NCBI RefSeq assembly: GCF_004138135.1
Contig: NZ_RYFD01000045.1
Location: forward strand, 1-38,264
Direction: 5' to 3'
Source: Candidatus Oscillochloris fontis
Lineage (GTDB): Bacteria > Chloroflexota > Chloroflexia > Chloroflexales > Chloroflexaceae
Length of the DNA stretch: 38,264 nt
Translations under genes and position numbers: made by a program
The notes under the pieces: generated by a model
Told to the model about the DNA's origin: nothing
What the model saw: the letters and a program-made list of their open reading frames with translations, nothing else
Databases searched by the model: none
Part shown: piece after piece, positions 13,337 to 37,432 of the stretch
Position numbering within the stretch: the first letter of the stretch is position 1
Layout: each line of letters starts with the position of its first letter

Positions 13337-14482
13337 ATGGAACGCACCCACAATACTGGCTACTACATCGCCATCGTAGCCGTGATTCTGGCCATCATCA
13401 TCAGCATTGTTGGCGGAGCGATTGCCGGGGGAGCCGCAGCCTATTACGTGGTACAACGCAACCTGAGTAGCCAAACCGTCAGTTCACCAACAATCACGGT
13501 GGCTCCGGTGGCGATGCAGAACAGCAGCCAGACAGCCCCGGTTGTGAGTAGCAGTTCGGAGGCGATGGTCAATGCCGTGCAGCAGGTCGCCCCAGCAGTA
13601 GTGACGGTACTCAGCATGAGCCGCCAGGGGAACGGCAGCGGTAGCGGGGTGATCATCAGCGAGCAGGGCTACATCCTCACCAACAACCATGTGGTGGAAA
13701 ATGCCCGCAGCCTCGCGGTGGTGCTGAATGACGGCACCCGGCGCGATGCCACCTTGATCGGTACCGACGCCATGAACGACATTGCGATCATCCAGATCGA
13801 GGGTGATCTACCCGCCGTGGCCCAGATCGGTGACGCGGCGGCACTCCAACCGGGCGAGCAGGTCTTGGCGATTGGCAGCCCGTTGGGCGACTTCCGCAAC
13901 ACCGTGACGGCGGGGGTGGTAAGTGCGCTGAACCGCTCGGTAGGTTCGATGGAGGGGCTGATCCAGACCGATACGGCGATCAATAGTGGTAACAGTGGTG
14001 GGCCGCTGATCAACCTGCGCGGCGAGGTGGTGGGCATCAACACCCTGGTGGTGCGTAACGATCAGTTCGCCTTCGGGGCGGCCCCGGTGGAGGGCTTGGG
14101 CTTTGCGGTACCGAGCAACATCTTCCGGGGGGTGGCCGATCAGTTGATCGCCACTGGCAACGTGAGCTACCCCTTCCTGGGAGTGAGCTACATCACGATT
14201 GACGGGAGCGTAGCGGTAGAGTTGGATCTCCCGGTGCAGAGCGGGGCACTCATCTACAGTAGCCAGGGTGGGCCAGCGGTGCAACCGGGAACCGCAGCGG
14301 CGCGCGCCGGGCTACGTGAGGGCGACATCATCACCGCGATAGATGGCGTGGCGATTGACGGCAACACCTCGCTGCGCCAATTGCTGCTCCAATACCAGCC
14401 GGGCGACACCGTCACCCTGACGATTCTGCGCGATGGTGACCAACGTGAGGTGCAGGTGACATTGGGCGAGCGAGAAATATAA
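13337..14482 (+). CDS. htrA: Membrane-anchored HtrA/DegP-like serine protease (S1C) with PDZ domain
   Basis: 381 residues. A single N-terminal membrane helix (YYIAIVAVILAIIISIVGGA) anchors the protein, with the protease outside. The trypsin-like domain shows the catalytic triad: His in LTNNHVVENA, Asp in MNDIAIIQ and Ser in NSGNSGGPL. One PDZ domain follows (AARAGLREGDIITAIDGVAI) and binds C-termini of misfolded substrates. ATG 13337 is preferred because AGGA (13325-13328) lies 8 bases upstream. An ATG at 13319 and the open frame from 13283 lack a ribosome site, and the latter overlaps the palindrome. Likely role: envelope protein quality control. Confidence 0.92.
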   Translation: MERTHNTGYYIAIVAVILAIIISIVGGAIAGGAAAYYVVQRNLSSQTVSSPTITVAPVAMQNSSQTAPVVSSSSEAMVNAVQQVAPAVVTVLSMSRQGNGSGSGVIISEQGYILTNNHVVENARSLAVVLNDGTRRDATLIGTDAMNDIAIIQIEGDLPAVAQIGDAAALQPGEQVLAIGSPLGDFRNTVTAGVVSALNRSVGSMEGLIQTDTAINSGNSGGPLINLRGEVVGINTLVVRNDQFAFGAAPVEGLGFAVPSNIFRGVADQLIATGNVSYPFLGVSYITIDGSVAVELDLPVQSGALIYSSQGGPAVQPGTAAARAGLREGDIITAIDGVAIDGNTSLRQLLLQYQPGDTVTLTILRDGDQREVQVTLGEREI

Positions 14483-14661: not shown

Positions 14662-15807
14662 TTGAGGTCTATGCGTACCTACTTGCGCTGGTCACGGCTG
14701 TTGCTGGGGTTATTGCTCAGCACCATGCTCCTCAGCACCACGGCGACCTACGCAGCCGGTTCGGCCAACTCAGAACAACGCCCCTTCGCTGCCAGCTTGC
14801 TTGAGCACAATGGCGTGCCGGGCATGGCGGACAGGATCGCCCCAACTTCTAGCTCTACTGCGGCGGCTAACACTGCTGCACCCGCAACTGACCCCTACGC
14901 GATTGCTCCCACCTTCCGCATCCGCGCCACCCGCCAAGGTATGGTGGGCGGGCGTACTGCCAACGGGTACATTATCCCCCCCAAGGCGCGTTTCGTTTCG
15001 CTCCCATGCCGCTGCGTGCTCTCTAGCAAGGGCGGCAACGAGTACCAAGTACGCATCACCTACCGAGGGCGGAGCACCGTTGTGCCGGTGTATGATGTTG
15101 GCCCCTACAGTGCGCGTGATGACTACTGGAACCCGCAACGCACCGGCTACCCCGATCTTGAGTGGGGTTGGCCGATGGATCATGCCGCCTACTACGAGGG
15201 CTATAACGGTGGCCAGGCCGACAAGGGCTATGTGCGCTTCCCGACCGCGATGGATGTGGGGGATGGGGCGTGGATTGATGATCTAGGCATTGTGGGCGAT
15301 CAGGCCGAAGTTGAGGTGACGATGCTCTGGATGGGCCAAGATCCACTGGCCGGGCCACCCCAGCGCGACCCGAACCAGCCAGAGATCCTCGTAGACGAAC
15401 TGGGCGGCGATTTCTGGCACAACAGCCCCGATCTGGGCAGCAGTCCGGTAGGCTGTGGGTATGGGCGCCACGCCTACCAGACGCGCAGCGTCAACAACCC
15501 CAGCCAGAGTAGCCAGGTGGTGCGCTGGCAACCCAATCTGCCCAGCGAGGGTGAGTACGATCTCTACGTCCATGTGCCGATCTGCCCCAGCAAACGTGCG
15601 CCAACCACCTCAGCGCGCTACCTCATCCAGCACCGCGATGCCGCGCTGGAGGTCCTGGTTGATCAGAGCACCCAGACCAGTTGGGTCTACCTGGGGCGCT
15701 ACCCGTTTAGTGCCGGTAGCAACGGGTTTATCCAGTTGGGTGATGTGACGAGTGAGAGTGGTAAGGCGATCTGGCTTGATCAGGCGCGTTGGGTGCGCGT
15801 GAATTAA
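14662..15807 (+). CDS. Secreted protein with golvesin C-terminal-like domain
   Basis: 381 residues from the TTG at 14662. GGAGG (14651-14655) is 6 bases before this TTG but 15 bases before the ATG at 14671, so the TTG is preferred. A signal peptide follows (LLLGLLLSTMLLSTTATYAAG). Residues ~85-215 form a domain around VPVYDVGPYSARDDYW that recalls double-psi beta-barrel secreted proteins, but I cannot name it firmly. Residues ~245-380 match the golvesin C-terminal-like fold (VRWQPNLPSEGEYDLYVHVP, YLIQHRDAALEVLVDQ, WVYLGRYPFSAGSNGFIQL, IWLDQARWVRV), a beta-sandwich probably binding carbohydrate or mediating attachment. It is likely extracellular. It does not end in the VYLP tail seen in other secreted proteins here. 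Confidence 0.78.
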   Translation: MRSMRTYLRWSRLLLGLLLSTMLLSTTATYAAGSANSEQRPFAASLLEHNGVPGMADRIAPTSSSTAAANTAAPATDPYAIAPTFRIRATRQGMVGGRTANGYIIPPKARFVSLPCRCVLSSKGGNEYQVRITYRGRSTVVPVYDVGPYSARDDYWNPQRTGYPDLEWGWPMDHAAYYEGYNGGQADKGYVRFPTAMDVGDGAWIDDLGIVGDQAEVEVTMLWMGQDPLAGPPQRDPNQPEILVDELGGDFWHNSPDLGSSPVGCGYGRHAYQTRSVNNPSQSSQVVRWQPNLPSEGEYDLYVHVPICPSKRAPTTSARYLIQHRDAALEVLVDQSTQTSWVYLGRYPFSAGSNGFIQLGDVTSESGKAIWLDQARWVRVN

Positions 15808-19203: not shown

Positions 19204-20279
19204 GGAGCCTCCGGGCGGGCAATCGTGCCCCCGCCGATCACCCGCTCGCCTGCGTAGAGTACCGCCGCTTGGCCGGGGCTGATCGCCCGTATGGGGCTTT
19301 GGAGTTGGATGTGCAGCCGCCCGCCGGGATGGGGTGTGACTGTGGCGGGCGCGGGTGTGCCATGGGCGCGTACCTGAACCTCGCAGGTAAAGGGCGACTC
19401 TGGCCATGTAGCGGCGACGCTACTGGCGGCTTCGACCCAAAACTCGTGGCGCAGCAGCGCTTCGGCGGGGCCGACAACGAGGGTGTTGCGGGCGGTGTCG
19501 AGGCCAGTGACATAGAGTGGGGTTGCAGCGTAGATACCTAGCCCCCGGCGTTGGCCGATGGTGTAGAGTGGTAGCCCCTGGTGTTGCCCCACCTCACGCC
19601 CGTGCTGATCCACAATCGGGCCGGGGACGAGGCTGGCGGGGGCTGCGTCACGCAGGAGTTGGCGGTAGTCGCCCGCCGGGACAAAGCAGATGTCCTGGCT
19701 CTCTGGGCGATCCGCGCTCTCAAGGTCGCGTGCGGCGGCCATTGTGCGCACTTCGCTCTTCTGGTATTCACCCAAGGGAAAGAGGAGGTGCGCAAGTTCG
19801 GCTTGGCCAAGCATATAGAGGACGTAAGATTGATCTTTGTTGCGATCAGCCGCCCGCAGCAGTTCATACTGGTTCGCGTCGGTGACACGCCGCCGCACAT
19901 AGTGGCCAGTGGCAACATAGTCGTAGCCGAGTTGGCTGGCGCGGGCCAGCAGGGCACGGAATTTAAGCTCGCGGTTGCAGGCGATGCAGGGGTTGGGGGT
20001 GTAGCCATGGCTATAGGCATGCACGAAGGCATCAACCACGGCGCGCCGAAATTCGCGCTGGTAGTTGAAGACGTAGTAGGGGATGCCGAGTTGGTTACAG
20101 ACCTGCCGCGCACTGGCGGTCATTTCGAGTGAGCAGCAGAGGCTCTCGGCCAAGTGATCGTCGTCACCTTCCCACAGGTGCATGGTAACACCGACCACCG
20201 TGTGGCCCTGTTCGTGGAGGAGTGCGGCGGTGAGCGAGCTATCTACGCCCCCGCTCATTGCGACCATGATCGTTGCCAT
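19200..20279 (-). CDS. mnmA: tRNA-specific 2-thiouridylase MnmA
   Basis: 359 residues, the usual length. It adds sulfur to U34 of tRNA Lys, Glu and Gln in the cytosol, taking sulfur from a relay protein and ATP. The PP-loop is SGGVDSS (residues 9-15). The catalytic cysteines lie in NPCIACNRELKF and ESQDICFVPAGDY, and ATGHYVRR and KDQSYVLYML are family motifs. The ATG at 20279 matches the family N-terminus (MATIMVAMSGG). An extension to 20342 would run through the promoter. The -10 box is only 6 bases from the ATG and there is no Shine-Dalgarno, so the mRNA is probably leaderless. Confidence 0.95.
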   Translation of the reverse strand: MATIMVAMSGGVDSSLTAALLHEQGHTVVGVTMHLWEGDDDHLAESLCCSLEMTASARQVCNQLGIPYYVFNYQREFRRAVVDAFVHAYSHGYTPNPCIACNRELKFRALLARASQLGYDYVATGHYVRRRVTDANQYELLRAADRNKDQSYVLYMLGQAELAHLLFPLGEYQKSEVRTMAAARDLESADRPESQDICFVPAGDYRQLLRDAAPASLVPGPIVDQHGREVGQHQGLPLYTIGQRRGLGIYAATPLYVTGLDTARNTLVVGPAEALLRHEFWVEAASSVAATWPESPFTCEVQVRAHGTPAPATVTPHPGGRLHIQLQSPIRAISPGQAAVLYAGERVIGGGTIARPEAP

Positions 20280-23616: not shown

Positions 23617-26181
23617 TTAACGTTTGGGATTAAACACATAAATGATCACCTCACCATTGCCGAAGCTGATTGGAGTAGCGATTTGGGCAAACTTTGCGAG
23701 GCTCTCAGGCGTGTAGTTGGCCTGTTCAAGATCGCCAACATAGACATAGCGTACCGCATACTGATCAAGCAAGCGGCGCGTCTCAGCTAGGTCATTACTG
23801 GTATAGATGCGGTAGACATCACTACAGCGCGGGCCGAGCTGGGCCGCAGCGGCGGGATCGCCCCCGCGCCACTGGCTCTCGTGGCCGGCCCAGCCGAGGA
23901 TGGTGGGCAACCCGGTGGCCGCCGATACTCCGGCGTAGCCTTCGGGGTTGTAGGAGCCACCACAGCTTGGCGGGTGATCATAGAGCAGCACCTCGGTCAT
24001 GTTGATGACCTCGATGGCCTCAACAAGCACACTTCCAGGCGCGGCATTATACCGCAACCACGTGATAGCCTCGGCTTCGGCGGTGCTCTGTTCACGCGGG
24101 GTTGGCGCATTGAGGTCGCGGGGTTGGCCCAACTGCATGTCGCGCAGCACCAGCACGGGGTAGACACTAGCCCCAACCAGGAAGATCGCGCTGAGCGCCG
24201 CAGCGGCAATCCCCGCCACGCGGCGTAGGCCGGTGCTGCGCACGAGGATGTACCAGAGGGCGAAGGGGGTGAGCGTGCCCCAGAGCAACCAGACTTGGTA
24301 ATAGAACTTGAAGATGGTATTGAAGCGCGCCGACCAGCCTTCAAAGACATCGCGGATGTAGATGATCTCGGTGCCGAAGATGATCGCACAGCCCAGCGTC
24401 GTGAGGAGCAACGCAAAACGCTGCGCCGGATCGTGGGGATGATCGAGGGCAATGCTGAAGGCCAGCACTCCCAGACCAAAGACGGCCAGTAGCGGGAAGC
24501 CGAGCAGTAGGCCCGCGAGCAGCAGCACTGGTGGCAACCAGCGCACGATCCAGGGGGTAGCGGGTTGGGGCACGAGATAGACCAGGGTGAGGATGGGAAC
24601 CGCGAAGAGGCCGAAGATGATCAGGAAGGCGTGCAGACCGCTGCGGGTGGCGGGGTAGAGACCGATAATGCTGGAGATCTTGCTCAGAATCGGCAGGTTG
24701 ATCAGCGGATCGGCCCCACCGACAAGCGAGCGGAAGGTGAGGTAGAAGGGCAGGAAGAGCAGGAAACTCAGCAGCACCACCAGCCCCAGATGGCGGGCGT
24801 AGGTGCGCCAGGGGAAGGGTGACGTATTTTCAGACAGCGAAGCTTCTTCTTGACGCAAAGGCGCGAAGACGCCAAGGTTAGGTTTGGTTACGTTACTCAG
24901 TTCTGGAGAGCGAAGATCAGATATTGAAGGCTTTGCGGCTTTGCGGCTTTGCGTCAGAATCGGGGTTCTAGGGGCAGTACGGTACGCAAGCAGCATAGCC
25001 CCGGCGTAGAGCAACAGATAGGTGGGCAGATCCCAACTGTTGATCGCGTAGAGGCTGCCCAGGACGAGGCCACTGAGCAGCAACGTGAGCATACGCGAAG
25101 CACCAGTATCTTCTTCGCTGCGCCGCACACTCGCCGCCAGCGCCATAGCGAGCAACCCAAACGGGAGCGCCATCACATGCGGGTGCATGTCACCCAGGCG
25201 AAAGCTGAAGAAGGGGAACTCGGTGATCGCATAGCGCAACTCCTCGCGGGGTGGATCTTCATTCCGCAGGGTGTAGCGATCCCAGAGCGAGCGCGAAGGC
25301 CACCACCAGTTGAACGCGCCGGGCGCAGCCATGTCGCGGCGTTCCCAGCCACTCAGGTCGCCAAACTCGCCGGTGGGCGCGGGGGGGGAGAGTTCGATCT
25401 CCGCTGCACCGCCGAGCACTTGGCCCGCCGCCGCCACCAACTGCGGGCCATCGAGCACCACGGCGCGCTCGTCACCCAGGAGCACCTGGATCGCCCCCGA
25501 CTGATTGCCCGCGACCAGCACCAACACAGCACCGAGCACCCCGGCGAGCCAACTCGGCCAGCCATGCCCGCCGGCCATGCCGATCATACAGCGCACCAAC
25601 CCGACCACCCCCTGGGCGGTGAGGGCCACAATCAGGGCCAGGGCCAGGTTGTAGGCCATACTGGGAGCCAAGCCACTCAGTTGGGCCATCACCGCCATCA
25701 GCAGGTAGCCGAAGTAGTAGTAGTTGATGCTATAACCCGCCAGCCAGGGATCGAGGGGTGGGAACGTGGGGCTGCGCTGGATGGCATTGAAGAAGGCGAA
25801 ATCCATTGCCCGCTCGGTACCCCAAGGGGTCGGATCGTAGCTACGCATCCAGATGAAGGCGAGCAGCGCCAACAGGAAGATCGCCTCATAGCCAAGCAGG
25901 TTGGTGCGGGTGGGCAGGGGTTGGGTGGGAGTATGACGCCAAAGCCAGATACCGAAACCACCCAAGAGCAGGATGCAGATGATCAGTAAGGGCAACCCAA
26001 AGCGCCCCAACCCCAGCATTGCCAGCAACCAGGCCACGTAGCCCAGCAGCAACAAACCAAGTGGCTTGGCAAAGGGGTAACCGGCATCGGGGAGGTGGCC
26101 GAAGAGCAGGCGCGTGTATGGAAGCCCCAGCAAACCCACAACTTGGGCCACCAACCACCAGATCAGAATTGCAGTAGACAT
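23617..26181 (-). CDS. Chlor_Arch_YYY (DUF2298) multi-pass membrane protein, single-module class
   Basis: 854 residues with many membrane helices. The family motif GYSINYYYFGYLLMA is near residue 150. Other signatures: WMRSYDPTPWGTERAMDFAF, ITEFPFFSFRLGDMHPHVMALP, NSWDLPTYLLL, then FNTIFKFYYQVWLLWG and, near the end, a soluble segment (LPTILGWAGHESQWRG, YAVRYVYVGDLEQ) like that in oligosaccharyl- and mannosyltransferase-type proteins. TIGR03662 describes this family in Chloroflexi and Archaea, with glycosyltransferase activity suggested. ATG 26181 is preferred over a TTG at 26214, since the membrane segment starts directly after it. A palindromic element (24850-24957) is translated inside it as PILTQSRKAAKPS... 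. It lies 45 bp downstream of the endonuclease gene. Confidence 0.85.
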   Translation of the reverse strand: MSTAILIWWLVAQVVGLLGLPYTRLLFGHLPDAGYPFAKPLGLLLLGYVAWLLAMLGLGRFGLPLLIICILLLGGFGIWLWRHTPTQPLPTRTNLLGYEAIFLLALLAFIWMRSYDPTPWGTERAMDFAFFNAIQRSPTFPPLDPWLAGYSINYYYFGYLLMAVMAQLSGLAPSMAYNLALALIVALTAQGVVGLVRCMIGMAGGHGWPSWLAGVLGAVLVLVAGNQSGAIQVLLGDERAVVLDGPQLVAAAGQVLGGAAEIELSPPAPTGEFGDLSGWERRDMAAPGAFNWWWPSRSLWDRYTLRNEDPPREELRYAITEFPFFSFRLGDMHPHVMALPFGLLAMALAASVRRSEEDTGASRMLTLLLSGLVLGSLYAINSWDLPTYLLLYAGAMLLAYRTAPRTPILTQSRKAAKPSISDLRSPELSNVTKPNLGVFAPLRQEEASLSENTSPFPWRTYARHLGLVVLLSFLLFLPFYLTFRSLVGGADPLINLPILSKISSIIGLYPATRSGLHAFLIIFGLFAVPILTLVYLVPQPATPWIVRWLPPVLLLAGLLLGFPLLAVFGLGVLAFSIALDHPHDPAQRFALLLTTLGCAIIFGTEIIYIRDVFEGWSARFNTIFKFYYQVWLLWGTLTPFALWYILVRSTGLRRVAGIAAAALSAIFLVGASVYPVLVLRDMQLGQPRDLNAPTPREQSTAEAEAITWLRYNAAPGSVLVEAIEVINMTEVLLYDHPPSCGGSYNPEGYAGVSAATGLPTILGWAGHESQWRGGDPAAAAQLGPRCSDVYRIYTSNDLAETRRLLDQYAVRYVYVGDLEQANYTPESLAKFAQIATPISFGNGEVIIYVFNPKR
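24850..24957. repeat. In-frame palindromic element, GACGC-AAG family (copy 1), inside a YYY gene
   Basis: The left arm TTGACGCAAAGGCGCGAAG... (24850-24877) pairs imperfectly with the right arm ending ...GGCTTTGCGTCAG (24931-24957). The centre is longer than in other copies. The host frame stays open through it and encodes a basic, hydrophilic stretch (ILTQSRKAAKPS). Confidence 0.75.
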
Positions 26182-26226
26182 CTCCAGCCTTTTGTACCAG
26201 CAGTTGAGTGACAATACCTCACAGCA

Positions 26227-27069
26227 TTAAAGAGTAAGTCGTGTTCGTGAAGATATTTTAGCTTGTAGGGCAGTGATGATTTTCTCCATCTCTACATTGG
26301 GTGTTACTTGAAGCCCTAAACAGGTGGCTATTCCCTTCGCATTCGTGCTTGATCTAGAATTTAATCTCAAACGATATTGTTTTTCTTCTTTCACTAAAGA
26401 ATATGAATGGAATTGCATAGAGTCTCCCAGCTTGGCATGTTCAACATGTGAGAAAGAAAAATTTCTTCTCATATAATCTAACAATGGTTCTTGGAGTACT
26501 AAAACTACATGCTTGCCTAAATGCTCAAACGTTTCGGTCTTGTGATGCAACTGAACGAGGATTGTCTTTGCTGTCATCTTCCAGTTTATACCATACGGCT
26601 TGTTCACATCAGCACCATGAGCATCACCTACACCAACCTCTTGCAAAAATCGTTGGCGATGTGGCCAGAGCGTACCAGTGGTATCTAATGCCTGCAATTC
26701 TATGCCCACAAAATCAACTACTATGCCATTTCGTACAGAAGTTAATACATAATCAATACTTCCACCCGGAACGTCTACCTCAGCAATGTTGTGTAACTCG
26801 TTTCCTGGCTCATGAAGAGTTAATAAGTGAATACAGTCCATGAATATCTGCTTAAGCTCTAAAAATCGGTGTGGGCAGATGATCATACCTACACCTTCTT
26901 TAGCTCCATGATTGACAGTACAGGTTCCAATTGCAATCTCAGGTTGGCTTTTTCGAATTTTTATACATCTTTTTTCAAGGTATGGGCAGTATTGTTGCTC
27001 TACAAGGCTTTCCCAGTCTTCATTGGCTTTGAAGGTTGGCACACCAAATAATTCAAATACATTACTCAT
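26227..27069 (-). CDS. NotI-family type II restriction endonuclease
   Basis: 280 residues. Four cysteines (C28 and C35 in CPYLEKRC, C50 in GTC, C65 in ICPHR) match the iron-binding Cys4 site characteristic of NotI. The PD-(D/E)XK-type active site fits D106 (SIDYVL) with E124 and Q126 (IELQALD), as NotI uses E-x-Q rather than E-x-K. The ATG (27067-27069) overlaps the TGA of the methyltransferase gene as ATGA. Base composition is much lower in GC than the flanking genes, suggesting transfer. NotI itself cuts GCGGCCGC; the target here is unknown. Confidence 0.8.
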   Translation of the reverse strand: MSNVFELFGVPTFKANEDWESLVEQQYCPYLEKRCIKIRKSQPEIAIGTCTVNHGAKEGVGMIICPHRFLELKQIFMDCIHLLTLHEPGNELHNIAEVDVPGGSIDYVLTSVRNGIVVDFVGIELQALDTTGTLWPHRQRFLQEVGVGDAHGADVNKPYGINWKMTAKTILVQLHHKTETFEHLGKHVVLVLQEPLLDYMRRNFSFSHVEHAKLGDSMQFHSYSLVKEEKQYRLRLNSRSSTNAKGIATCLGLQVTPNVEMEKIITALQAKISSRTRLTL

Positions 27070-28115
27070 AATAGTGTATTGCTCCTTCTATACGCATAAT
27101 CGAGGTATTCCTGCGCTATATCAATTCCTATTGATTTACGGAAAAGCTGTTTAGCAACAACATTTGTTGTTCCTGTCCCGCAAAAAGGATCGAGTACCAC
27201 TCCTGCTAATGGGCAAGTAGCTAGGATTGGTATTTTACATAGATCTTCAGGATAAGCTGCATAATGAGCCTCACGACCTTGAGTGTCTTCGGGGATGATT
27301 TCCCAAACATCACCCGGCTTACTGCCATTAGGGTGGTATTTTAGGAAATAGAATCCTTTCTGCTGTAATTCTTTTGCACGACCTGACAGTTTTGTAGATT
27401 CAGAATGTGTTGTTCGTTGTTGGTTTCTGATAACCATACGGAAATCGGAAATCTCACCATTTGCAACTTGTTCCAAAACGTTATTCAATGCGAGAAAAGC
27501 CGTTTCTTTTTCTGTCTGTGATAGAGACGTAGAAAGCTGAATCTGACGCTTATAGCGTACACCTGTCACACCAGTTGCTGAAACTACGGCTCCATTTTTA
27601 ATCTGTGCCAGCCGAGGTTTTGAACGAATCGCGTGATCATCATAATAGTACCCCTTATTTTGCTTGACAAAGTGAAAGATATACTCATGAACATTGCGTA
27701 GCTTGTCTTGCGTATTGTCAGGGCCTTTGATCTTGTTCCAAATAACATCATTTCGCAGAATCCAACCCTGACGATCTATCATCGCAATGGCTATGCGCCA
27801 AGGTAGACCGATAAGTCCTTTTGAAAGATACGTGTCTCCGATATTTAACCAGAATGATCCTGTTTTTTTTAGAATTCGTTTTATCTCGATAAATACTAAC
27901 AATAATTTATCAATATACTCCTCGAAATTTTCTTCTAGTCCAATACCACCGTTCATATATTCACGCTTATGCCAATAAGGGGGACTTGTCATACACATAT
28001 CTATACTCTCACAGGGTAACTGCTTAAGAACATCCAAAGAGTCTCCTTGAATATAGAGAGGTTGATAGTCGCTTCCTTCCAAGTATTGATGTACCTGCTC
28101 TCTGATTGGGATCAC
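27066..28115 (-). CDS. DNA methyltransferase, beta-class, probably N4-cytosine (restriction-modification)
   Basis: 349 residues. The catalytic motif TSPPYW is near residue 45 and the AdoMet motif DPFCGTGTT near residue 320. That order is the beta class, and the SPPY form usually marks N4-cytosine methylation. Between them are SFWLNIGDTY, NDVIWNK and HEYIFHFVK, family-typical, and a target recognition region. It is the protective partner of the NotI-like endonuclease it overlaps. Start: GTG at 28115 with AAGGA (28126-28130) 10 bases upstream. AT-rich relative to the neighbours. The methylase precedes the endonuclease, which fits safe establishment. Confidence 0.88.
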   Translation of the reverse strand: MIPIREQVHQYLEGSDYQPLYIQGDSLDVLKQLPCESIDMCMTSPPYWHKREYMNGGIGLEENFEEYIDKLLLVFIEIKRILKKTGSFWLNIGDTYLSKGLIGLPWRIAIAMIDRQGWILRNDVIWNKIKGPDNTQDKLRNVHEYIFHFVKQNKGYYYDDHAIRSKPRLAQIKNGAVVSATGVTGVRYKRQIQLSTSLSQTEKETAFLALNNVLEQVANGEISDFRMVIRNQQRTTHSESTKLSGRAKELQQKGFYFLKYHPNGSKPGDVWEIIPEDTQGREAHYAAYPEDLCKIPILATCPLAGVVLDPFCGTGTTNVVAKQLFRKSIGIDIAQEYLDYAYRRSNTLL

Positions 28116-28145
28116 GGAAGTGTGTTCCTTACTTGCAAACGTATG

Positions 28146-28164
28146 TACTTATATAAGTATACCA
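28146..28164 (-). promoter_or_regulatory. Predicted promoter and overlapping palindrome of the restriction-modification operon
   Basis: On the minus strand TGGTATACT is an extended -10 (hexamer 28156-28161). A perfect 14-bp palindrome TACTTATATAAGTA (28146-28159) covers the -10 and the predicted start site. It is a possible operator for repression, although no controller (C) gene is found. The leader is about 34 bases. Confidence 0.5.
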
Positions 28165-28175
28165 TGCCCATCTCC

Positions 28176-31100
28176 CTACTCCTCAACCTCATAGTGCAGA
28201 TCGGTAATGATCTGCACTGCCTGATTCACCCATGGCCCAGATGGGTCTAACTCTAGGTAGACGAGTAGCTCAGAGAGCGCCAGATCGCGCTCCTGGCGCT
28301 GCACAAAGACGAGGCCCAAAAAGTAGTGCGGGTCGGCAAGATCGGGGTTGATACTGATCGCTTGCAAGAAGGCCATCTCGGCTTTACCAATCTCTCCCCA
28401 ATCCAGCAATGCGGTGCCCAGTTTGTTCCAGTTCTCGGCGGTTGGGTTGGTCTGCGCCGCTGCGGTGTAGACCGCTTCGGCTTCAGTATAGCGCGCCAGA
28501 TCGCTCAGGATGTCGCCGTAGAGGTGCTGAAGGCCGGTATCGTCGGGGTTGGCATGTGCCGCCGGAGCAAGGATGCGTACCGCATCTTCGAGCCGCCCCT
28601 GGTTGCGGTACGCATCGGCCAGCCCAAAGGCGGTCGGGCCATCGGTGGGGTTGTCGGCGAGGGCGCGTTCTAGCCCCTCAATATCGTGGCTGTTGGCGTC
28701 TGGCGCGGCAGGGGCTACCGGGCGACTCACCGGGGCTGGGTAGGCGTAGCTCTGCGGGATGCCCGCCACGTGGTAGATCTGAACCCCGTCAGTGTCGTAG
28801 ATGCGGTGCAGGTAGTTGCCTTCGAGTTGTTCAAACTTGGCCAATCCTTCGGGTGGGTAGAAGGCGCGCTCGACCCCGCCGATGTAGATGTAGTTGACCC
28901 GGTAGGTGGCCAAGAAGCGCAGGGCATCATCAATGCTGGTGGTGGTGTAGAAGTTGCTCAATGCCGCGTCGCGCATCCCGGTCAGGCTGGGGTCGCGCTG
29001 TTCATTCTCGTGTAGCGCACTGATCACGGTGGGGAGACCGGTGTTGGCGGCGATGCGTATCCCGTAGGCGCGGTAGAACCAGAGGTTGGATTGCACTACT
29101 ATCGGGGTACCACGTATCTCGCGGTTGATCCAGTCAATCGCCGCCGCGTCGCCACGCAGATCAACCGTGACCCGCTCCGCTCCGCCGACGCAACCCCCAA
29201 AAGCGCGGCAGTCATAGTCAAAGCTGGCCTCGCGCAAGAAGGCTAGGCCATCCAGGGTTGGCCCGCTCTGTACCGCAAAGCGGTTGGCGACCCGCGAGGG
29301 GATGGCGGCCACCGGGTAGGCCAGGGCCAGCAGCCCTAGCCCGGCCAACCCGATCAGGGCGGCGGTTTGGGCATATTTCCCCCCCATGCGGCGCAATGCC
29401 CGCATCCCGGTTGGCAGGCTGGCGGCAGCGGCGAGGGCGAAGAGTACCCAGGCTTGCATGCCGAACTTGAAGACGGTGTTCATGCGCTGCCAGTCGCCGC
29501 CATCCAGGTGGTCGCGGATGTAGATGAGTTCCACCCCTAGCGAGACGGCCCAGCCCAGCCATGCCAGGAGCAGTGCGTACCAGGTGCCGCTGCGGATCGG
29601 ACGCCGGAGCAGCACCGCGCTGCTGAAGATGATCAGCATGAGCAGCGCCACGCGCAGTGCTAGATCGGGGCGCAGGATGGCGATGAAGAGGCTGATCAGC
29701 CCCAGAGCGATCAGGATGCCACGTATGGTAGCACCGGCATCTTGCCGGTCGGTGGGTAACTCTTCAGACTTGGGGTAAAGAAAGCGTCTGATTGACGCCA
29801 AGGCGCGAAGACGCAAAGGTTTAGTTGCAGGCTTTGCGCCTTCGCGTCTTCGCGTCAAAATCGGGAGGCTAGGAGCAATGTGTATAGTTGCGAGGCTACG
29901 CCACACGGCCCCGATCAGCGCGGGGATCAGGATGGCCATGGGGATGCCAAAGACGATCAGGTAGTCGGGGAGGCTGGTTCCGGCTTCCCCCGCCACCCAA
30001 CCAATCCCGCGCACAAAGGCGAAGTAGCGCTCAAAGAAGGGCGCGTAGAGCAGCATCCCACCCACGGCGATCATGATCGCCGTGCCTCCGGCCACCACGA
30101 TGCCCCGCCATCCCGCCTTGCGCCGCCATGCCCCACCCACCAGCACTAGCCCCGTGAGCAATGCATAGGTCGGGAAGTCCCACGAGTTGGTGACGGCCAG
30201 TGCGCCTAGGGCGAGGCTGAGGAGGAGCATTTGTAACTGTTCACTCTTGGAGTAAAAGAAACCTCGTGTTGACGCAAAGGCGCAAAGACGCAAAGATTTT
30301 GTTGCAGGCTTTGCGTCTTTGCGTCTTTGCGTCAAACCCTGGAGGCTAGGAGAAGTATGAACAATTACTCTATCAGTACAAAAGAGTAGCTCATACCCCA
30401 ATGCGATCACCAACAGCGTGATCGGCAGCGCGATCAGGTGGGCGTGCAGATCGGCGAAGAGGAATGAAAAGAAGGGAAACTCGTTGATCGTGAAGGGGAT
30501 GACCCGACTCGGCCCGATGTACCAGTCGCCCAGGCGCTCGCCCAGCCCCGCCAGCCCCCCGGCGGCGAGGGCGCGGCTCACCGCCCCCCACCCCGCCGAC
30601 CATCCCGACTCGAAGATCGCGCTCAGGTTGCCCGCTACCGCCACCAAGCCTGCACCGACCAGCCCATAACGGGTACGCCCGGTTAGGCGGGTGACGATAC
30701 TAAAAGCGGCACTCAAGGTCAGCCCAAAGAGGGTGGCGAGTGCTAGATTAAAGCCGATGGCCGGGGCGATGCCGCTGATTTTGATCGGTAACGAGACAAG
30801 GTAGAGGCCGTAGTAGTAGTAGTTGATGTAGCCATCGCTGAAGAAGGGATCGTAGGGTGGCATGGTTGGGCTGCGTAGGATGGCGTTCAGGAAGCCAAAC
30901 TCCATCGGTTTCTCGCCACCCCAGATCGGGTGCCACAGATCGGGGTTGAGTGCGCGTATCCATACCATTACGCCAAACCCGGCCAGGAAGATCAGTTCGC
31001 TACGCCACACGCCCGCCCAATGGTTGCGCAAATTCCCATAGATGGGAATTAGGCCGCCCTGGCGAACGATCAGCCAAGTGTTGAGGATGACCACCAACAC

Positions 31101-34100
31101 CAACCCGAAGCTCACCCCCCAGACGTTGTAGCGCCACAGCCCCAGGCTGGTCGGCAGCCAGATCGCCCAGCCCAGTAGCAGCCAGCCGATCAGGCGCGCC
31201 CAGCCCCAACCCGCGTCGCGGCTGCGCGCAAAGATGATCTGGGCCAGTGGCAGGCCGAGCAGCGCCAGCGTATACCAGAGGCCCAGCCAGAGTAGCGTGG
31301 CCAGCCATGAATTGCCCGCCACCCATTGATTCCACGCATATTCATTGACTTCGGGCTGCTCATTGACTGGCGTTTGCAGCAGCAATGGCGGTGCAGTCCG
31401 CAGCGTGGGGATCGCCAACGGTACATCGCTGGTCAACATCTGCGGCTGGCCGGGGCGCACCACCTGATAGATGCGCGTCTGTCCGGCACTAAAGGCCAGC
31501 ACCAGATCGCCCTGCGCGACCAGGGTTTCAAACTTGGCTAAGCCCTCGGCGCTGTAGGTGCTGCGCTCCACCCCACCCACATAGAGGTAGGTGACGCCAT
31601 AGCGCTGGAGCCAGTCGAGTGCTTGCATCGGATCGGGCGTGTTGTAGATCTCGGCAATGATCGTCTGGCGGTTAGCAATCACCGGGTTGGCCTGCATCAC
31701 CATGCGCTGCTGGATCTGGTGCCACTCCCAGCCGAGCAGCGTGGGGAGGCCGGTGAAACTAGAAATCCGCCCCGCCCATTGGTACGAGGGCAGATGGGCC
31801 TCCAGTAGCACCGGCGTTCCCTGTACCGACTCTTGCAGCCAGCGGATCGCGGCAGCGTCCTCATCCAGCGAATAGGTGGGGCCAGCCGTTACCGCGTTCA
31901 CACTTGGTAAAAAGGCAGCCCCATCGAGACCGTGCGGCGCATCCCCGTTCCAGCGGTCGGCGAGGCGGGCGGGGGTGGCGGTGAGCGGGTAGACCAACGC
32001 GGCGGTCACGAGCAGGCCGATGCTGCTGCGCACCACCCAGCGCGCCCAGGGGCGGGGGCGTAGTGGTTTGCCCAGCGACTGAAGTCGCGGGCTAAGCCCG
32101 CGAAGCCCGCCTACGCGGGCTGGGGTTAGCCCGCGTAGGCGGGCTTTGTAGCGTCTAGCCGGGGGCTTCAGCCCCACGGCAATGGTACGTAAAACTCCCC
32201 CGGTAGGCACCGGCCAGTGCCACAGATGCGGCAGCGCCACTGCCGCGCTCAGCGCGAAGAGCGTCCAGGTGTGCAGGCCAAACTTGAAGACCGTATTCAT
32301 GCGCCCGACATCGCCCTTGATCACGACCAGATCCACGAGCACCAGCAGCCCCAGTGCGGCGGTGGCCCACAGGATGGGGATCTGGCTCAGAACGGGCAGG
32401 CGCAGCAAGTACCAGAGCAGCACCACACCCACGCTCAGCATGGGCAGGGTGAGCGCCAGCGCGGGCCAGTGAAAGAGGCTCCCGGCAATCGCGATCCCCC
32501 CCAGAGCGACTCCGAACCCTAGTGCAAAGCCCGTTCCCACCAGACGGCGCAGCAGCAGTAATCCGGCCAGCGCGATCAGCACGAGCCAAAGGCCATAGAG
32601 TTGCAGTAGTTCCCAGAGTGGCGTGCGCGCCACCTTCGTCAGCGCCTGGATCAGACTCGGCGCACTCTCGTCTAAGAGCGGCTGCAAGCCGGAAGATTCG
32701 GTGACAAAAGCGCTCGTGAAGGGTAGGAAGAGCAGATTGCCGAGCAGCGGGAAGGCCACGGCCACCGCCACCCCGCGCAGACTCGCGGCGAAGCGCGAGT
32801 GGCCTGCCGCCCGCCCGCTGCGCCACGTGGCCCACCCGACGGTCAGTGCGGTCAACCCGACAAAGGTCGGGTAATCCCAGGTGTTGGTGGCGCGGATCGC
32901 CCCGGCGAGCAGCGCCGCCAGCCCCAGAACTGCTATGGCACCAAGACGCAAAGGTTTTCTTGCAGGCTTTGCGTCTCTGCGTCTTGGCGTCAAAATCTGG
33001 AGGCTAGGCGCAGGGTAAATAGCTCCCCCCTGGGCCACGATCCACGCCACCCCCAGACCCAACAGCGTCAGACTGAGCGGCATCACCATGAGGTGCGGGT
33101 GCAGATCGGCAAACAGGAAGGTGAAGAAGGGGAACTCGTTCACCGTGCCCTCGACAATCCGCGTGGCATCCCAGAAGGCCCATTCGGGACGCCCCTTGGC
33201 CACCTGTTCGGCTGCGTAGCCATTCAGGTACCAGAGCGCCTGGGCCAAGTTGCCGAGGATGAGCAGTAGCGGCGGAGCAAGCAGCGCCGAGATCAGCGCG
33301 CGGCGCTGGGGGGTGTGACAGAGCATTGGCATGCGGTTACGCATCCTCTTGTGCCCCGGTTTTTGACCGCAGAGGAACGCAGAGGAAGAACCACAAGGAG
33401 CGCGAAACCCATCCCTCTGCGTTCCTCTGTATCCTCTGCGGTTGAGAGGTGTGCGACTAGCCACCAAGTTATACACCACCCCCCAAGCCCCCAGCGCCGT
33501 CAGCCCAAACAGGGTCGCAATCGCCAGATTGAAGCCCACGCTGGGCAGCACGCCACTCAGATGCACCAGCGCACCCACCAGCACAAAACCAAAGTAGTAG
33601 TAGTTGATATAGCCCCCGGCGTGCCAGGGATCATAGGGCGGGAAGGCCGCACTCTTCAGCACCGCCGTCAGGTAGGCCAGATCCATCGGCTTCTCGCCGC
33701 CGCGTGCCGGGTGGCCGAGATCGGGGTTGAACCAGCGCAGCACCAGACCCAGCAGCACAAAGGCCACGAAGATCCCCTGGGCGCTGAGTAGCATGGCCCG
33801 GTTGGCGCGGGCAAAATCGCGTAGGGCGGCGCGGCTACGCCACGCCACGAACGCCCCCAGCCCCAGCAGCGGTGCCGCACACAGCCAGAGCGTCGCGGGC
33901 GTAAAGGCCAGCGGCAGCAGGGGCAGGCGGTCGGTGGCGGTGCGCCCGGCCATACCGGGCAGGCCGGTGCCATTGTCGAGGCTCCCAAGCAGCCACGCCA
34001 GATAGGCCACGAGTAACAGGCCAAGGATCTTGGCCAGACTAAAGCCCCGGTCGGGGAGGCGCGGGAAGAGGTGGAAGAGCAGCGCGAAGGTGGCCAGGCC

Positions 34101-36476
34101 GAGCAATTCTAACACTACAAACCATGTGAGCGGAGCCAGATTGGCCAGCCAGCCCTGCGCAAAGAGCTGCGACCACGTCCCGGCGTTGGTGTAGCGTTCC
34201 CACTGGGTTGGTGTGAAGCGCAGCGCCGTCGGGTTACGATCCGCAATCTGGGTCGGCGACTTATAGACCTCGCTCCACAGCACCGAGGCGGTGATCAATC
34301 TTTCAGCACGTTCACGCGAATAGGCATAGGTCTTTTTGAAGATCAGCACACGGGGATGATCATAGACACTAAACGCCTCTTCGGCGATCTGATCGGGAAT
34401 CTTGAGACCCAGGATCGTCGGGTAGGACGTAATATCGGCCACCAACTCAAAGCCGAGATCGCCATTGAAGAGGCTCTGGTAATAGTTCATCAGCGCCGGG
34501 TAGCGCATACGCAAGCGGGCGGTACTCGCATAGACCCGGTTACTGGTGAGGGTGATATAGTCGGCCTGATCGAGATGATCGAGCAGCCCTTCCTGATAAA
34601 AGCCCTCGTTGTTATAGAAACCCGTATACTTCTGCGGCTCATCCTCAGCATACGGAGCCGACTCGATCCCAAAGAGCGAGATCCCCCAGCCGGTATTGGT
34701 GGTCTGAAGGGGCAACGGATCATCCCAGATCTCGGCCATCACCTGCGAACCGGGCGCGGCGTGGTCGGTCAGCCAGCGCGCCGCGATCACCCGGCTATGG
34801 GGCTGGGTATAGATCCGCGAGAAGGCATACGCCCACCCCAACGTTGCCAACAGCACCGCAATCACCAGCAGGCGCGGCCAGAAGCGTCTGAGGCTGAAGG
34901 CATCCCAGAGCCACAGCATCAACCCGGCGGCAAAGATCGTCAACGAACCATAGATCGGCAAGAAGTAGCGCATCGTACTGGCATACTGCCCGCCCAGCCA
35001 CGCGAAGTAAAAACCGATCCAGACAAAGAGTACCCAGGCGGCGGGTAACTGTTCACCCTTGGGAGAAAGAAAACTTCTGATTGACGCCAAGACGCCAAGA
35101 CGCCAAGGTTTTATTGCAGGCTTTGCGCCTTGGCGTCTTGGCGTCAAAATCGAGATGCTAGGAGAAGTGTGAACAGCGCCCCGTACCGCCCCCAGCCCAA
35201 ACCCCACCCACCCCAACCAGGCCACAATCCCCAGCGCCGGTCCCATGCCCCAGAGCACGATATTGCTCCAGGCGAAGAGATAGGCCGGACGCCCCACCCA
35301 CTGCTGGCCGGGCGGAAAATCAATCTCACCCGTCATCAGGTGTTGAACTTCGCGGATATTCTTGACGAAACGCGGATCGAGGCGCACGTCGAAGAAGCCC
35401 ATCCCGCGCAGCCGATCCAGTTCCACAATCCGCTCCCCGACCATCTCTGGTGAAGCGGGCAAGGAGCCACTAAAGGCATCGGGCGCAAAGGTGCGGAAAC
35501 TGAGCAACGTGAGCATACCCGCGAGGATGAGTAGCGGCAACTTCTGGGTGAAGAAGAACCAGACCTGATCGGCCCAGCCCGCACGCGGCTGGCTGGTGCG
35601 CAGCGCCACCAACGCCGCGATCATCGCCGTCAGACCCAGGCTGGCCAGGGTGATGCGGTTGGCCATCGCCACCCCAATTGTCAGGCCGAGCACGAGGTAG
35701 CAGACGAGGCCGCCACCCTGGGCGATCCGCACCGCCCAATAGAGCGCCAGCGTGGCGAAGAAGGTCGAGAAGATCGGATCAACAAAGAAGTGCGTCTGCT
35801 GAATCGGCATGACCGCCAGCGCCAGACATGCCGCCGCCAACAGCCCCAGACGATCATCCCGCAGACGCTGCCCGATCAGAAAGACGAGCAGGATCGTCCC
35901 CAGATCAAAGAGCAGCGCCACTGCACGCCCGACCTTATTGATCTGGCCATACGCCGTCAGATTGACGCCATCGGGGTTAAAGATTGCGATCAGCGGGGTC
36001 AGTTTGGGGATCGCCCGTTCAGGATTATCCACCAGTGGGCCAAGATCGGTCTGGATCTGGGAGGAATAGGCGACCGCATCCAGCACACGCGGCGGGCCAT
36101 TGAGCGCGGGGACTTGCAGGGGCAGAATCGGGCCAGCCGGGCCATCATTGGGGGTCAGCGCCACCGCAGCGAGGCGGGTGACATAGATCGGGAACGGGCC
36201 ATAGACATAGAACGAGAACTGCTCGTAGTTACGCGGATTGAGCGGCGAACGCGCCGAATCATACACCTCGCTGAGACTCGACGGCAAGCGCACCGTCGCA
36301 GCCACATTGGTAAAGAAGCGCTCATCGGGATGCTGGCCCGTATCAGAATCCCAATCCGGCAGGCTCAGGCTACGGAAGTAGGCCGCCACCAGCAGAATAA
36401 CGAGCAACAACGCCCAGACAAGTGTATGCGTGCGAACAGATGCAGCCGTTCGAGAAAGCGTTGGTGGTGCCTGCAC
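28176..36476 (-). CDS. Giant Chlor_Arch_YYY membrane protein: GT39-like N-terminus, two DUF2298 modules, C-terminal TPRs
   Basis: 2766 residues. Residues ~1-760 are a GT39/PMT-like region (membrane helix, then HPDERFF at 49-55; repeated helices; soluble part with VMAEIWDDPLPL). Module 1 has GGYINYYYFGFVLVG near 957 and NTWDYPTF near 1190; module 2 has DGYINYYYYGLYLV near 1886 and NSWDFPTY near 2085. Each ends in a soluble segment with FKFG and YLYVGGVERS/YIYIGGVERA. TPRs fill ~2630-2766. This is the two-copy class of TIGR03662, so the fusion is expected; a lipid-linked sugar transferase role is suggested for the family. The start is a GTG with AAGGAG 11 bases upstream. The remarkable feature is at least six palindromic elements inside the frame, in residues ~434-477, 1010-1038, 1160-1180, 1434-1465, 2036-2081 and 2195-2240. 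Confidence 0.85.
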   Translation of the reverse strand: MQAPPTLSRTAASVRTHTLVWALLLVILLVAAYFRSLSLPDWDSDTGQHPDERFFTNVAATVRLPSSLSEVYDSARSPLNPRNYEQFSFYVYGPFPIYVTRLAAVALTPNDGPAGPILPLQVPALNGPPRVLDAVAYSSQIQTDLGPLVDNPERAIPKLTPLIAIFNPDGVNLTAYGQINKVGRAVALLFDLGTILLVFLIGQRLRDDRLGLLAAACLALAVMPIQQTHFFVDPIFSTFFATLALYWAVRIAQGGGLVCYLVLGLTIGVAMANRITLASLGLTAMIAALVALRTSQPRAGWADQVWFFFTQKLPLLILAGMLTLLSFRTFAPDAFSGSLPASPEMVGERIVELDRLRGMGFFDVRLDPRFVKNIREVQHLMTGEIDFPPGQQWVGRPAYLFAWSNIVLWGMGPALGIVAWLGWVGFGLGAVRGAVHTSPSISILTPRRQGAKPAIKPWRLGVLASIRSFLSPKGEQLPAAWVLFVWIGFYFAWLGGQYASTMRYFLPIYGSLTIFAAGLMLWLWDAFSLRRFWPRLLVIAVLLATLGWAYAFSRIYTQPHSRVIAARWLTDHAAPGSQVMAEIWDDPLPLQTTNTGWGISLFGIESAPYAEDEPQKYTGFYNNEGFYQEGLLDHLDQADYITLTSNRVYASTARLRMRYPALMNYYQSLFNGDLGFELVADITSYPTILGLKIPDQIAEEAFSVYDHPRVLIFKKTYAYSRERAERLITASVLWSEVYKSPTQIADRNPTALRFTPTQWERYTNAGTWSQLFAQGWLANLAPLTWFVVLELLGLATFALLFHLFPRLPDRGFSLAKILGLLLVAYLAWLLGSLDNGTGLPGMAGRTATDRLPLLPLAFTPATLWLCAAPLLGLGAFVAWRSRAALRDFARANRAMLLSAQGIFVAFVLLGLVLRWFNPDLGHPARGGEKPMDLAYLTAVLKSAAFPPYDPWHAGGYINYYYFGFVLVGALVHLSGVLPSVGFNLAIATLFGLTALGAWGVVYNLVASRTPLNRRGYRGTQRDGFRAPCGSSSAFLCGQKPGHKRMRNRMPMLCHTPQRRALISALLAPPLLLILGNLAQALWYLNGYAAEQVAKGRPEWAFWDATRIVEGTVNEFPFFTFLFADLHPHLMVMPLSLTLLGLGVAWIVAQGGAIYPAPSLQILTPRRRDAKPARKPLRLGAIAVLGLAALLAGAIRATNTWDYPTFVGLTALTVGWATWRSGRAAGHSRFAASLRGVAVAVAFPLLGNLLFLPFTSAFVTESSGLQPLLDESAPSLIQALTKVARTPLWELLQLYGLWLVLIALAGLLLLRRLVGTGFALGFGVALGGIAIAGSLFHWPALALTLPMLSVGVVLLWYLLRLPVLSQIPILWATAALGLLVLVDLVVIKGDVGRMNTVFKFGLHTWTLFALSAAVALPHLWHWPVPTGGVLRTIAVGLKPPARRYKARLRGLTPARVGGLRGLSPRLQSLGKPLRPRPWARWVVRSSIGLLVTAALVYPLTATPARLADRWNGDAPHGLDGAAFLPSVNAVTAGPTYSLDEDAAAIRWLQESVQGTPVLLEAHLPSYQWAGRISSFTGLPTLLGWEWHQIQQRMVMQANPVIANRQTIIAEIYNTPDPMQALDWLQRYGVTYLYVGGVERSTYSAEGLAKFETLVAQGDLVLAFSAGQTRIYQVVRPGQPQMLTSDVPLAIPTLRTAPPLLLQTPVNEQPEVNEYAWNQWVAGNSWLATLLWLGLWYTLALLGLPLAQIIFARSRDAGWGWARLIGWLLLGWAIWLPTSLGLWRYNVWGVSFGLVLVVILNTWLIVRQGGLIPIYGNLRNHWAGVWRSELIFLAGFGVMVWIRALNPDLWHPIWGGEKPMEFGFLNAILRSPTMPPYDPFFSDGYINYYYYGLYLVSLPIKISGIAPAIGFNLALATLFGLTLSAAFSIVTRLTGRTRYGLVGAGLVAVAGNLSAIFESGWSAGWGAVSRALAAGGLAGLGERLGDWYIGPSRVIPFTINEFPFFSFLFADLHAHLIALPITLLVIALGYELLFCTDRVIVHTSPSLQGLTQRRKDAKPATKSLRLCAFASTRGFFYSKSEQLQMLLLSLALGALAVTNSWDFPTYALLTGLVLVGGAWRRKAGWRGIVVAGGTAIMIAVGGMLLYAPFFERYFAFVRGIGWVAGEAGTSLPDYLIVFGIPMAILIPALIGAVWRSLATIHIAPSLPILTRRREGAKPATKPLRLRALASIRRFLYPKSEELPTDRQDAGATIRGILIALGLISLFIAILRPDLALRVALLMLIIFSSAVLLRRPIRSGTWYALLLAWLGWAVSLGVELIYIRDHLDGGDWQRMNTVFKFGMQAWVLFALAAAASLPTGMRALRRMGGKYAQTAALIGLAGLGLLALAYPVAAIPSRVANRFAVQSGPTLDGLAFLREASFDYDCRAFGGCVGGAERVTVDLRGDAAAIDWINREIRGTPIVVQSNLWFYRAYGIRIAANTGLPTVISALHENEQRDPSLTGMRDAALSNFYTTTSIDDALRFLATYRVNYIYIGGVERAFYPPEGLAKFEQLEGNYLHRIYDTDGVQIYHVAGIPQSYAYPAPVSRPVAPAAPDANSHDIEGLERALADNPTDGPTAFGLADAYRNQGRLEDAVRILAPAAHANPDDTGLQHLYGDILSDLARYTEAEAVYTAAAQTNPTAENWNKLGTALLDWGEIGKAEMAFLQAISINPDLADPHYFLGLVFVQRQERDLALSELLVYLELDPSGPWVNQAVQIITDLHYEVEE
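29756..29890. repeat. In-frame palindromic element, GACGC-AAG family (copy 2)
   Basis: The arms ATTGACGCCAAGGCGCGAAG... (29791-29819) and ...CTTCGCGTCAAAAT (29832-29861) pair, with family flanks on both sides (GTAACTCTTCA on the left, GGAGGCTAGGAG on the right). It is translated as ILTRRREGAKPATKPLRLR and SIRRFLYPKSEELP. Directly to the left a short ACCGGCA-TCT-TGCCGGT hairpin (29733-29749) encodes DRQDAGAT, probably another small repeat. Confidence 0.8.
30233..30368. repeat. In-frame palindromic element, GACGC-AAG family (copy 3), with terminal inverted repeats
   Basis: The inner arms 30269-30295 and 30309-30335 match at 26 of 27 positions. The outer ends GTAACTGTTCA (30233-30243) and TGAACAATTAC (30358-30368) are inverted repeats with one mismatch, giving a ~136-bp MITE-like unit. 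It is translated as HTSPSLQGLTQRRKDAKPAT and continues to YSKSEQL. The insertion site is just before NSWDFPTY of module 2. Confidence 0.85.
32084..32175. repeat. In-frame palindromic element, AGCCCGCCTACGCGGGCT family
   Basis: The arms AGCCCGCCTACGCGGGCT (32104-32121) and its reverse complement (32128-32145) are perfect around GGGGTT, flanked by GACTGAAGTCGCGGG and GGGGCTTCAGCCCC edges. The frame of the giant YYY gene runs through it, giving the basic peptide GLKPPARRYKARLRGLTPAR. A third family inside the same gene. Confidence 0.8.
32936..32997. repeat. In-frame palindromic element, GACGC-AAG family (copy 4), left side shortened
   Basis: GGCACCAAGACGCAAAGG pairs with CTTTGCGTCTCTGCGTCTTGG within the span. 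The right flank (AAAATCTGGAGGCTAGG) is family-typical; the left flank is missing. It is translated as PSLQILTPRRRDAKPARKPL. The insertion site lies before NTWDYPTF of module 1, equivalent to that of copy 3 in module 2. Confidence 0.75.
33363..33445. repeat. In-frame palindromic repeat, CCGCAGAGGA family (copy 2)
   Basis: The outer arms TTGACCGCAGAGGA (33363-33376) and TCCTCTGCGGTTGA (33432-33445), and inner CGCAGAGG/CCTCTGCG arms, pair. Here it lies within the giant YYY gene and is translated as NRRGYRGTQRDGFRAPC and SSSAFLCGQ, clearly unlike the surrounding membrane protein. Confidence 0.8.
35049..35176. repeat. In-frame palindromic element, GACGC-AAG family (copy 5), with terminal inverted repeats
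   Basis: The inner arms (35080-35108 and 35121-35150) pair. The outer ends CTGTTCAC (35049-35056) and GTGAACAG (35169-35176) are perfect inverted repeats, giving a ~128-bp unit. It is translated as ILTPRRQGAKPAIKPWRLG, then SIRSFLSPKGEQLP, between membrane helices of the GT39-like region. Confidence 0.85.
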
Positions 36477-36546: not shown

Positions 36547-36582
36547 CAGCAGAAGTGGGTATTTTCGTGATATACCCACCGA

Positions 36583-36669
36583 AATGATCCTATCACCATC
36601 CCTCTGCGCACCTCTGCGTCCTCTGCGGTACACCAAATCAACCGCAGAGGACACAGAGGTGCGCAGAGG
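36583..36669. repeat. Palindromic repeat, CCGCAGAGGA family (copy 3)
   Basis: Arms 36601-36629 and 36641-36669 are 29 bp with one mismatch around the loop ACACCAAATCA. The left flank AATGATCCTATCACCATC (36583-36600) is identical to that of copy 4 (37346-37363). The direct repeat TTTTCGTGAT flanks the element (36562-36571 and 36672-36681), possibly a trace of insertion. With the promoter above and the toxin remnant below, this explains most of the 377-bp gap 36477-36853. Confidence 0.8.
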
Positions 36670-37081: not shown

Positions 37082-37110
37082 CCCGGTTTGTGTCAAAATC
37101 GGGTAGACCA

Positions 37111-37206
37111 GCCTCCCGTTTTGACGCAAAGGCGCAGCGACGCAAAGGGTTTTGGTTTAGAGTTTTATCTTTGCGCCCTTGCGTCCTTGCGTCAAAACGA
37201 GAGGCT
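37111..37206. repeat. Intergenic palindromic element, GACGC-AAG family (copy 6)
   Basis: The arms GCCTCCCGTTTTGACGCAAA... (37111-37148) and ...GCGTCAAAACGAGAGGC (37169-37205) pair. Fragments of the same family lie on each side (GTCAAAATCGGG near 37092 and TTGACGCCAAGGCGCAGC at 37213). It is outside any gene, next to the antitoxin. Confidence 0.75.
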
Positions 37207-37284: not shown

Positions 37285-37345
37285 GCCATGCGGCGCGACC
37301 CTACCTTCGGGCATGTGGAGGAGCATGTCGGGTCGCGCCCTCCAG

Positions 37346-37432
37346 AATGATCCTATCACCATCCCTCTGCGTACCTCTGCGTCCTCTGCGGTTGATCTGG
37401 TGTACCGCAGAGGACGCAGAGGTGCGCAGAGG
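37346..37432. repeat. Palindromic repeat, CCGCAGAGGA family (copy 4)
   Basis: Arms 37364-37392 and 37404-37432 are 29 bp with one mismatch. The loop TGATCTGGTGT is nearly the reverse complement of the loop in copy 3, while the left flank AATGATCCTATCACCATC is in the same orientation as in copy 3. The gap 37082-37465 is filled by copy 6 of the GACGC family, the GCTCAGCCA palindrome and this element; I see no gene in it. Confidence 0.8.

Follow-up and report, generated by a model that had tools for sequence, protein, structure and literature searches.

Why do copies of one palindromic element lie inside open reading frames, always in the same orientation and translation phase, and what kind of element are they? 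The question is raised by a 38,264-nt stretch (the window), which is contig C132 of a 4.46-Mb genome and carries two genes for DUF2298/YYY membrane proteins. The features discussed here are as follows.

23617..26214, minus strand: gene of a DUF2298 (YYY) membrane protein, 865 aa, with a predicted GT-C-like fold and one insert (PF10060, 2.2e-117)
24823..24978, minus strand: MITE-derived in-frame insert with an enlarged spacer, residues about 413-464 of the 865-aa protein
28176..36476, minus strand: gene of a multi-domain DUF2298 (YYY) membrane protein, 2766 aa, with C-terminal TPRs and four MITE inserts (PF10060, 1.5e-226)
29754..29891, minus strand: MITE copy in frame +0, near full length
30231..30368, minus strand: MITE copy in frame +0, full length, TIRs with 1 and 2 mismatches
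32931..33026, minus strand: MITE copy in frame +0, right half lost
33324..33446, minus strand: repeat of a second family (CCTCTGCG type), unrelated to the MITE and inserted in frame; peptide around NRRGYRGTQRDGFRA..KRMRNRMPM
35043..35180, minus strand: MITE copy in frame +0, near full length
37110..37206, strand not given: palindrome of the MITE arm family with a 21-nt spacer, outside both YYY genes

The five in-frame copies described in the initial annotation are present in the two YYY genes, in one orientation and phase, and encode related basic peptides. They do belong to one family, but only three of the five approach full length: the copy near 32936 lacks its right half, and in the copy near 24850 the spacer is 54 nt compared with the usual 13. 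The target duplications of the window copies are eroded. Two pairs of terminal repeats had also been reported; inverted repeats exist there, but both pairs are eroded forms of a 13-bp sequence, GTAACTGTTCACA. Alignment with relatives shows that the peptides are missing at all five points in 17 of 17 homologues of each protein. For the 865-aa protein, the flanks of the insert point join within a few residues in the homologues, and for the 2766-aa protein the corresponding loops of the homologues are shorter and variable in length. The breaks at the inserts are also visible in homologue searches with both proteins. In two congeners (G005 and G003; loci L135 and L136), tandem-repeat peptides GWGLGVG and RGQGTGD, unrelated to the MITE, fill some of the same YYY loops. 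These unrelated repeats, together with the second repeat family, which sits at a different loop of the 2766-aa protein, suggest that the loops of YYY proteins take in foreign sequence in general.

The ends of the element were defined by 34 aligned rows (33 distinct copies) with their flanks. They are sharp: the element is 136 bp long (GTAACTGTTCACA...TGTGAACAGTTAC), with terminal inverted repeats (TIRs) of 13 bp and the TTGACGC hairpin inside. No transposase is coded, the longest frame of the element being 45 codons. The palindrome arm has 541 matches in the 4.46-Mb genome (at most 2 mismatches) against 0 for the reversed pattern, and the left end has 157 in the whole genome (at most 3 mismatches) against 0 for the control, so the DNA element is abundant outside the window. 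Individual copies were examined in fetched sequence, a contiguous sample plus stretches chosen for a near-intact copy end or an open frame. The 146 copies with at least 90 aligned bases and the 189 palindrome cores come from about 1 of the 4.46 Mb, and rates among them are not genome-wide. The target duplication is 8 bp; it is perfect (8/8) in 54 and matches at 7/8 in 16 of the 146 copies. Among the 54 copies with a perfect duplication, the length is 136 in 35, and the length plus 8 is divisible by 3 in 35. The element built around the palindrome is a true MITE: it is short, has TIRs and no transposase, makes a target duplication of constant length (8 bp) and shares its ends with an IS66 element (L401, described below). 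The proposal of a mobile family that entered loops of putative glycosyltransferases in frame is borne out and becomes more specific; the peptides are absent from the 17 homologues compared with each protein, and copies are plentiful elsewhere in the genome. The MITE end pattern has 0 exact matches in the named genome collection, which possibly does not include the genome of the window. A 44-bp remnant at C34:162373-162416 consists of barely more than two TIR-like ends.

The consensus translation has one open frame (+0) of six, and an insertion adds 136 + 8 = 144 bp, or 48 codons. With a single open frame and an added length divisible by 3, the constant phase is explained without any special mechanism: selection against broken genes would leave just this fixed orientation and phase in genes. 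Automatic coding scores place 6 of the 146 copies in frame, all six in frame +0. Of the rest, 67 lack coding flanks, 58 have one and a single copy is at a contig edge; the remaining 14 were scored as shifted or stopped, an automatic call that may include truly broken genes. In the contiguous sample without the window (42 copies), 1 copy is in frame, 7 are shifted and 34 have no or one coding flank. A six-frame scan of the 189 cores finds 10 clean in-frame copies and C9:42286, where the insert is enlarged and exceeds the test span, giving 11 in-frame internal copies in 8 genes. Two of these have perfect target duplications, C68:4064 (TCCTCATA) and C92:61464 (CGTTACTC). A genome profile search with the in-gene peptides reveals no further clean internal case among the 150 of 1352 candidates scored, with hits containing stops in C46, C63, C74 and C123 left outside the clean-case count. 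Long peptide-bearing frames in C11, C92:57554, C98, C100:31160, C117 and C130 were rejected, as in our reading they lie at the edge of, upstream of or antisense to a gene.

The pattern is broader than the two genes of the window, as eight membrane-protein genes are involved, these two and six elsewhere in the genome (within the roughly 1 of 4.46 Mb fetched). All eight host proteins have at least 6 hydrophobic segments, a feature of 42 of the 303 large ORFs of the sample (14.5% of bases). The naive probability of eight polytopic hosts out of eight is about 2e-7, or 9e-6 if there are six independent places. Pfam assigns DUF2298 to 2 of the host proteins and PMT_2 to 3 (one under the curated cut-off), and finds no glycosyltransferase match in 3 of the 8; those three look GT-C-like by motif and length only. 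All eight are polytopic membrane proteins as judged from their sequences, and several are recognisably GT-C-like glycosyltransferases. The fold was tested for one host. An AlphaFold model of the 865-aa protein, built from a 40-sequence alignment, has a mean pLDDT of 92, and only the insert (residues 421-460) contains 10-residue blocks with a mean pLDDT below 60. Helices 395-413 and 469-485 flank this disordered segment. The 11 best PDB matches of the model are DPY19, OST/STT3, AftA and PglB, with E values of 2.6e-6 to 0.04 and low TM-scores. The cytoplasmic location suggested earlier for the inserts holds for 8 of the 11, with 3 of 11 placed outside, according to a crude, home-made topology predictor that merges helices and was run with the inserts left out.

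We are largely confident that this 136-bp element is a non-autonomous MITE of IS66 origin, and that its copies in genes survive if an open frame is presented and the peptide is tolerated in a polytopic membrane protein. Rare hits in genes would persist only when orientation and phase give the single open frame. The host product would gain about 48 residues of basic, unstructured peptide, and the insert would be kept only where the protein tolerates it, as appears to be the case in polytopic membrane proteins, largely of GT-C type with interhelix loops.

It is improbable that the palindrome is instead protein-coding and selected for its peptide, with the basic segment anchoring or modulating glycosyltransferases and selection keeping the frame. 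The frame is indeed kept in 4 of 4 full-length copies in genes (3 of 3 at 85–90% identity), and outside genes it is kept in 36 of 92 (11 of 33 at 85–90% identity) and lost in 56 of 92. The synonymous fraction gives no sign of selection on the peptide, however; it is 31/118 = 0.26 in 6 in-gene copies, compared with 0.24 expected by chance and 0.24 in 59 other copies. All 11 in-frame copies are in membrane proteins and the inserts are basic, with a net charge of +3 to +7, but the insert of the 865-aa model is disordered, the 17 homologues of each protein do without the peptide, and some of the same loops hold unrelated repeats in two congeners. By these comparisons the insert peptide appears to be tolerated and not used, and no function is detectable. 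Of the initial suggestion that the family tolerates or exploits one coding frame, toleration stands and exploitation finds no support.

The parentage of the MITE is indicated by its ends. Members of the IS66 family have GTAA termini and make an 8-bp target duplication, so with the same two features in the MITE, IS66 was suspected as the parent family. The IS66 transposase (PF03050) has no match in the window's own genome at E 0.001, and has matches in 14 of the 61 genomes searched. L401 is an IS66-family element of 1439 bp from another genus of the same family, with an open frame of 461 codons. Both of its ends are common to the MITE: the right end is identical at 24/24 and 29/30 positions and the left end at 22/24 and 25/30. 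The MITE differs in being non-autonomous and in its TTGACGC hairpin, which is not seen in the L401 ends. L401 has a relative, L427, from a different family of the order, which has similar ends and a length of 1435 bp; the L427 transposase is 85% identical over residues 110-453 and its frame carries a stop. No matching 8-bp duplication is found at L401 or L427, and GTAA-ended pairs with perfect 8-bp duplications are found at 3 of the 25 IS66 loci of relatives (L403, L405 and L410). IS66 proteins in plasmids are less than 60% identical. These comparisons make an L401-type IS66 element the likely parent. Unlike the genomes of IS66 elements, the host genome of the MITE has no IS66 transposase match, and we infer for this reason that an IS66 transposase, now gone from the genome or missing from the assembly, would have moved the MITE in trans. 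A TIR at C1:162545 was considered as the end of an autonomous copy and rejected; by eye it sits between moaA and glycosyltransferase ORFs, and no transposase is among the 11 ORFs listed around it.

The core is a long hairpin, and relatives have it without these TIRs: in four relatives with a DNA match to the MITE, ten loci show the hairpin core or arm repeats and no TIR within 1 mismatch. The MITE therefore looks like a widespread hairpin equipped with IS66 ends. The same hairpin would suit REP/REPtron-type palindromes moved by a Y1 (HUH) transposase, or simple hairpin repeats, in place of the MITE of a DDE transposon. We give this reading very little weight, because the TIR ends are sharp, both ends are found on a DDE IS66 element, and 54 of 146 copies have perfect 8-bp duplications, which HUH enzymes are not known to make. 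That the inserts are ancestral loops lost by the homologues, and that coding sequence gave rise to the DNA copies elsewhere, is scarcely credible: loop lengths of the 2766-aa protein do vary among homologues, but related peptides occur at five different loops and in eight genes, the insert points are empty in all 17 homologues of each protein, 125 of the 146 examined copies lack a coding flank on one or both sides, and two in-frame copies have intact 8-bp duplications. Descent as an IS66-derived MITE is most likely.

Most of the examined copies lie outside genes, where positions immediately upstream of -35-like boxes are strongly preferred. Sigma70 -35-like boxes are found at a fixed distance from about half of the intact copies of this MITE outside genes, and the orientation is nearly always the same. 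When the flanks of the 54 perfect copies are joined, the distance from the start of the duplication to TTGAC is exactly 14 bp in 25 copies and 15 bp in 3, and TTGAC lies elsewhere in 1; at the mirrored position it occurs in 2 of 54. The 54 comprise 15 copies nested in their own family, 2 in-frame copies and 37 others. Among these 37, 18 match at least 4/6 of TTGACA at +14 (other offsets, mean 1.06, highest 4), and in 15 of them a -10-like hexamer follows at a spacing of 16–18 (elsewhere, mean 0.13, highest 2). A good -35 at +14 is missing in 19 of these non-nested copies. The opposite strand gives a match in 10 of 37, at an offset overlapping the motif itself. The two in-frame copies with perfect duplications do not have the motif at +14 (0/2). 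Nested copies have it in 11 of 15, with a -10 box too in just 1, and 9 of them match at -12 as well; the -12 matches probably come from the older copy's own end. At least seven pairs of left ends exactly 27 bp apart are found among the 100 left ends listed, of 157 in all.

Contig C15: left ends at 19613 and 19640
Contig C52: left ends at 15683 and 15710
Contig C65: left ends at 61047 and 61074
Contig C92: left ends at 57277 and 57304
Contig C46: left ends at 33038 and 33065
Contig C56: left ends at 51967 and 51994
Contig C100: left ends at 13352 and 13379

These pairs fit repeated nested self-insertion at one place of the element. In the IS66 elements, L401 has TTGGCG at +14 and TATAAT 18 bp later, and L427 has TTGCCA at +14 and GACAAT 17 bp on. 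The offset is not seen in IS66 elements with different ends (L403, L405 and L410), nor, by eye, in L428, L430 and L432. Since the nested sites are mostly without a -10 box, target choice seems to read the -35-like motif itself, and from the elements compared it seems to belong to the L401/L427-type subgroup of IS66. A survival bias toward non-coding sites exists, but it would not set the exact offset and orientation. On balance, we favor insertion at a programmed place by this IS66 subgroup and its MITEs, such that the start of the 8-bp duplication falls 14 bp upstream of the sigma70 -35 hexamer and one end nearly always faces the promoter. The TTGAC of the MITE arm, at the matching position, would make the element its own target and give nested arrays. 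Promoter-upstream sites and membrane-protein loops would then be two safe havens. A limited literature search found no report of promoter targeting by IS66 or MITEs, nor of Chloroflexi MITEs.

In-frame coding palindromes are best known from Rickettsia. The MITE adds an example from a relative of free-living phototrophs. Its likely transposon parent and the copies with intact target duplications make the way in which such elements enter genes directly accessible to study. The fixed phase gets a simple arithmetic reason, and the loops of polytopic membrane proteins are suggested as a refuge for in-frame insertions. Confirmation of the -35 offset would provide a clear case of a bacterial transposon whose target choice is linked to promoters. 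According to the available portion of a MITE review (PMC10969869), the Rickettsia palindromic elements (Ogata et al. 2000, 2002) are palindromes of about 150 bp, present in many copies and in frame in unrelated genes with a conserved peptide. On that description they appear to be closest to the MITE in behavior, and their one-phase insertion in coding genes is found for the MITE as well. Unlike them, as far as this portion goes, the MITE has a likely parent transposon family and many copies with intact ends and 8-bp duplications, is concentrated near -35-like boxes, and has its known in-gene copies all in polytopic membrane proteins. The same portion names other intragenic bacterial MITEs and repeats (QMITE1 of Coxiella, ERIC, BOX and Anabaena MITEs), small elements likewise able to fuse in frame with host ORFs; it does not mention for them a restriction to membrane genes or a fixed -35 offset, both seen for the MITE.

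The second repeat family of the window is also found elsewhere. The CCTCTGCG-type repeat occurs in three long frames of contig C9 (C9:42991, C9:44538 and C9:47432), two of which are among the eight MITE host genes, and two 95-bp copies with near-perfect hairpins lie upstream of the large YYY gene, at 36575-36669 and 37338-37432. A further insert (GLKPPARRYKARLRGLTPARVGG...) lies at about 32072-32225, in the 2766-aa protein at residues of about 1418-1468, and is mostly absent from homologues.
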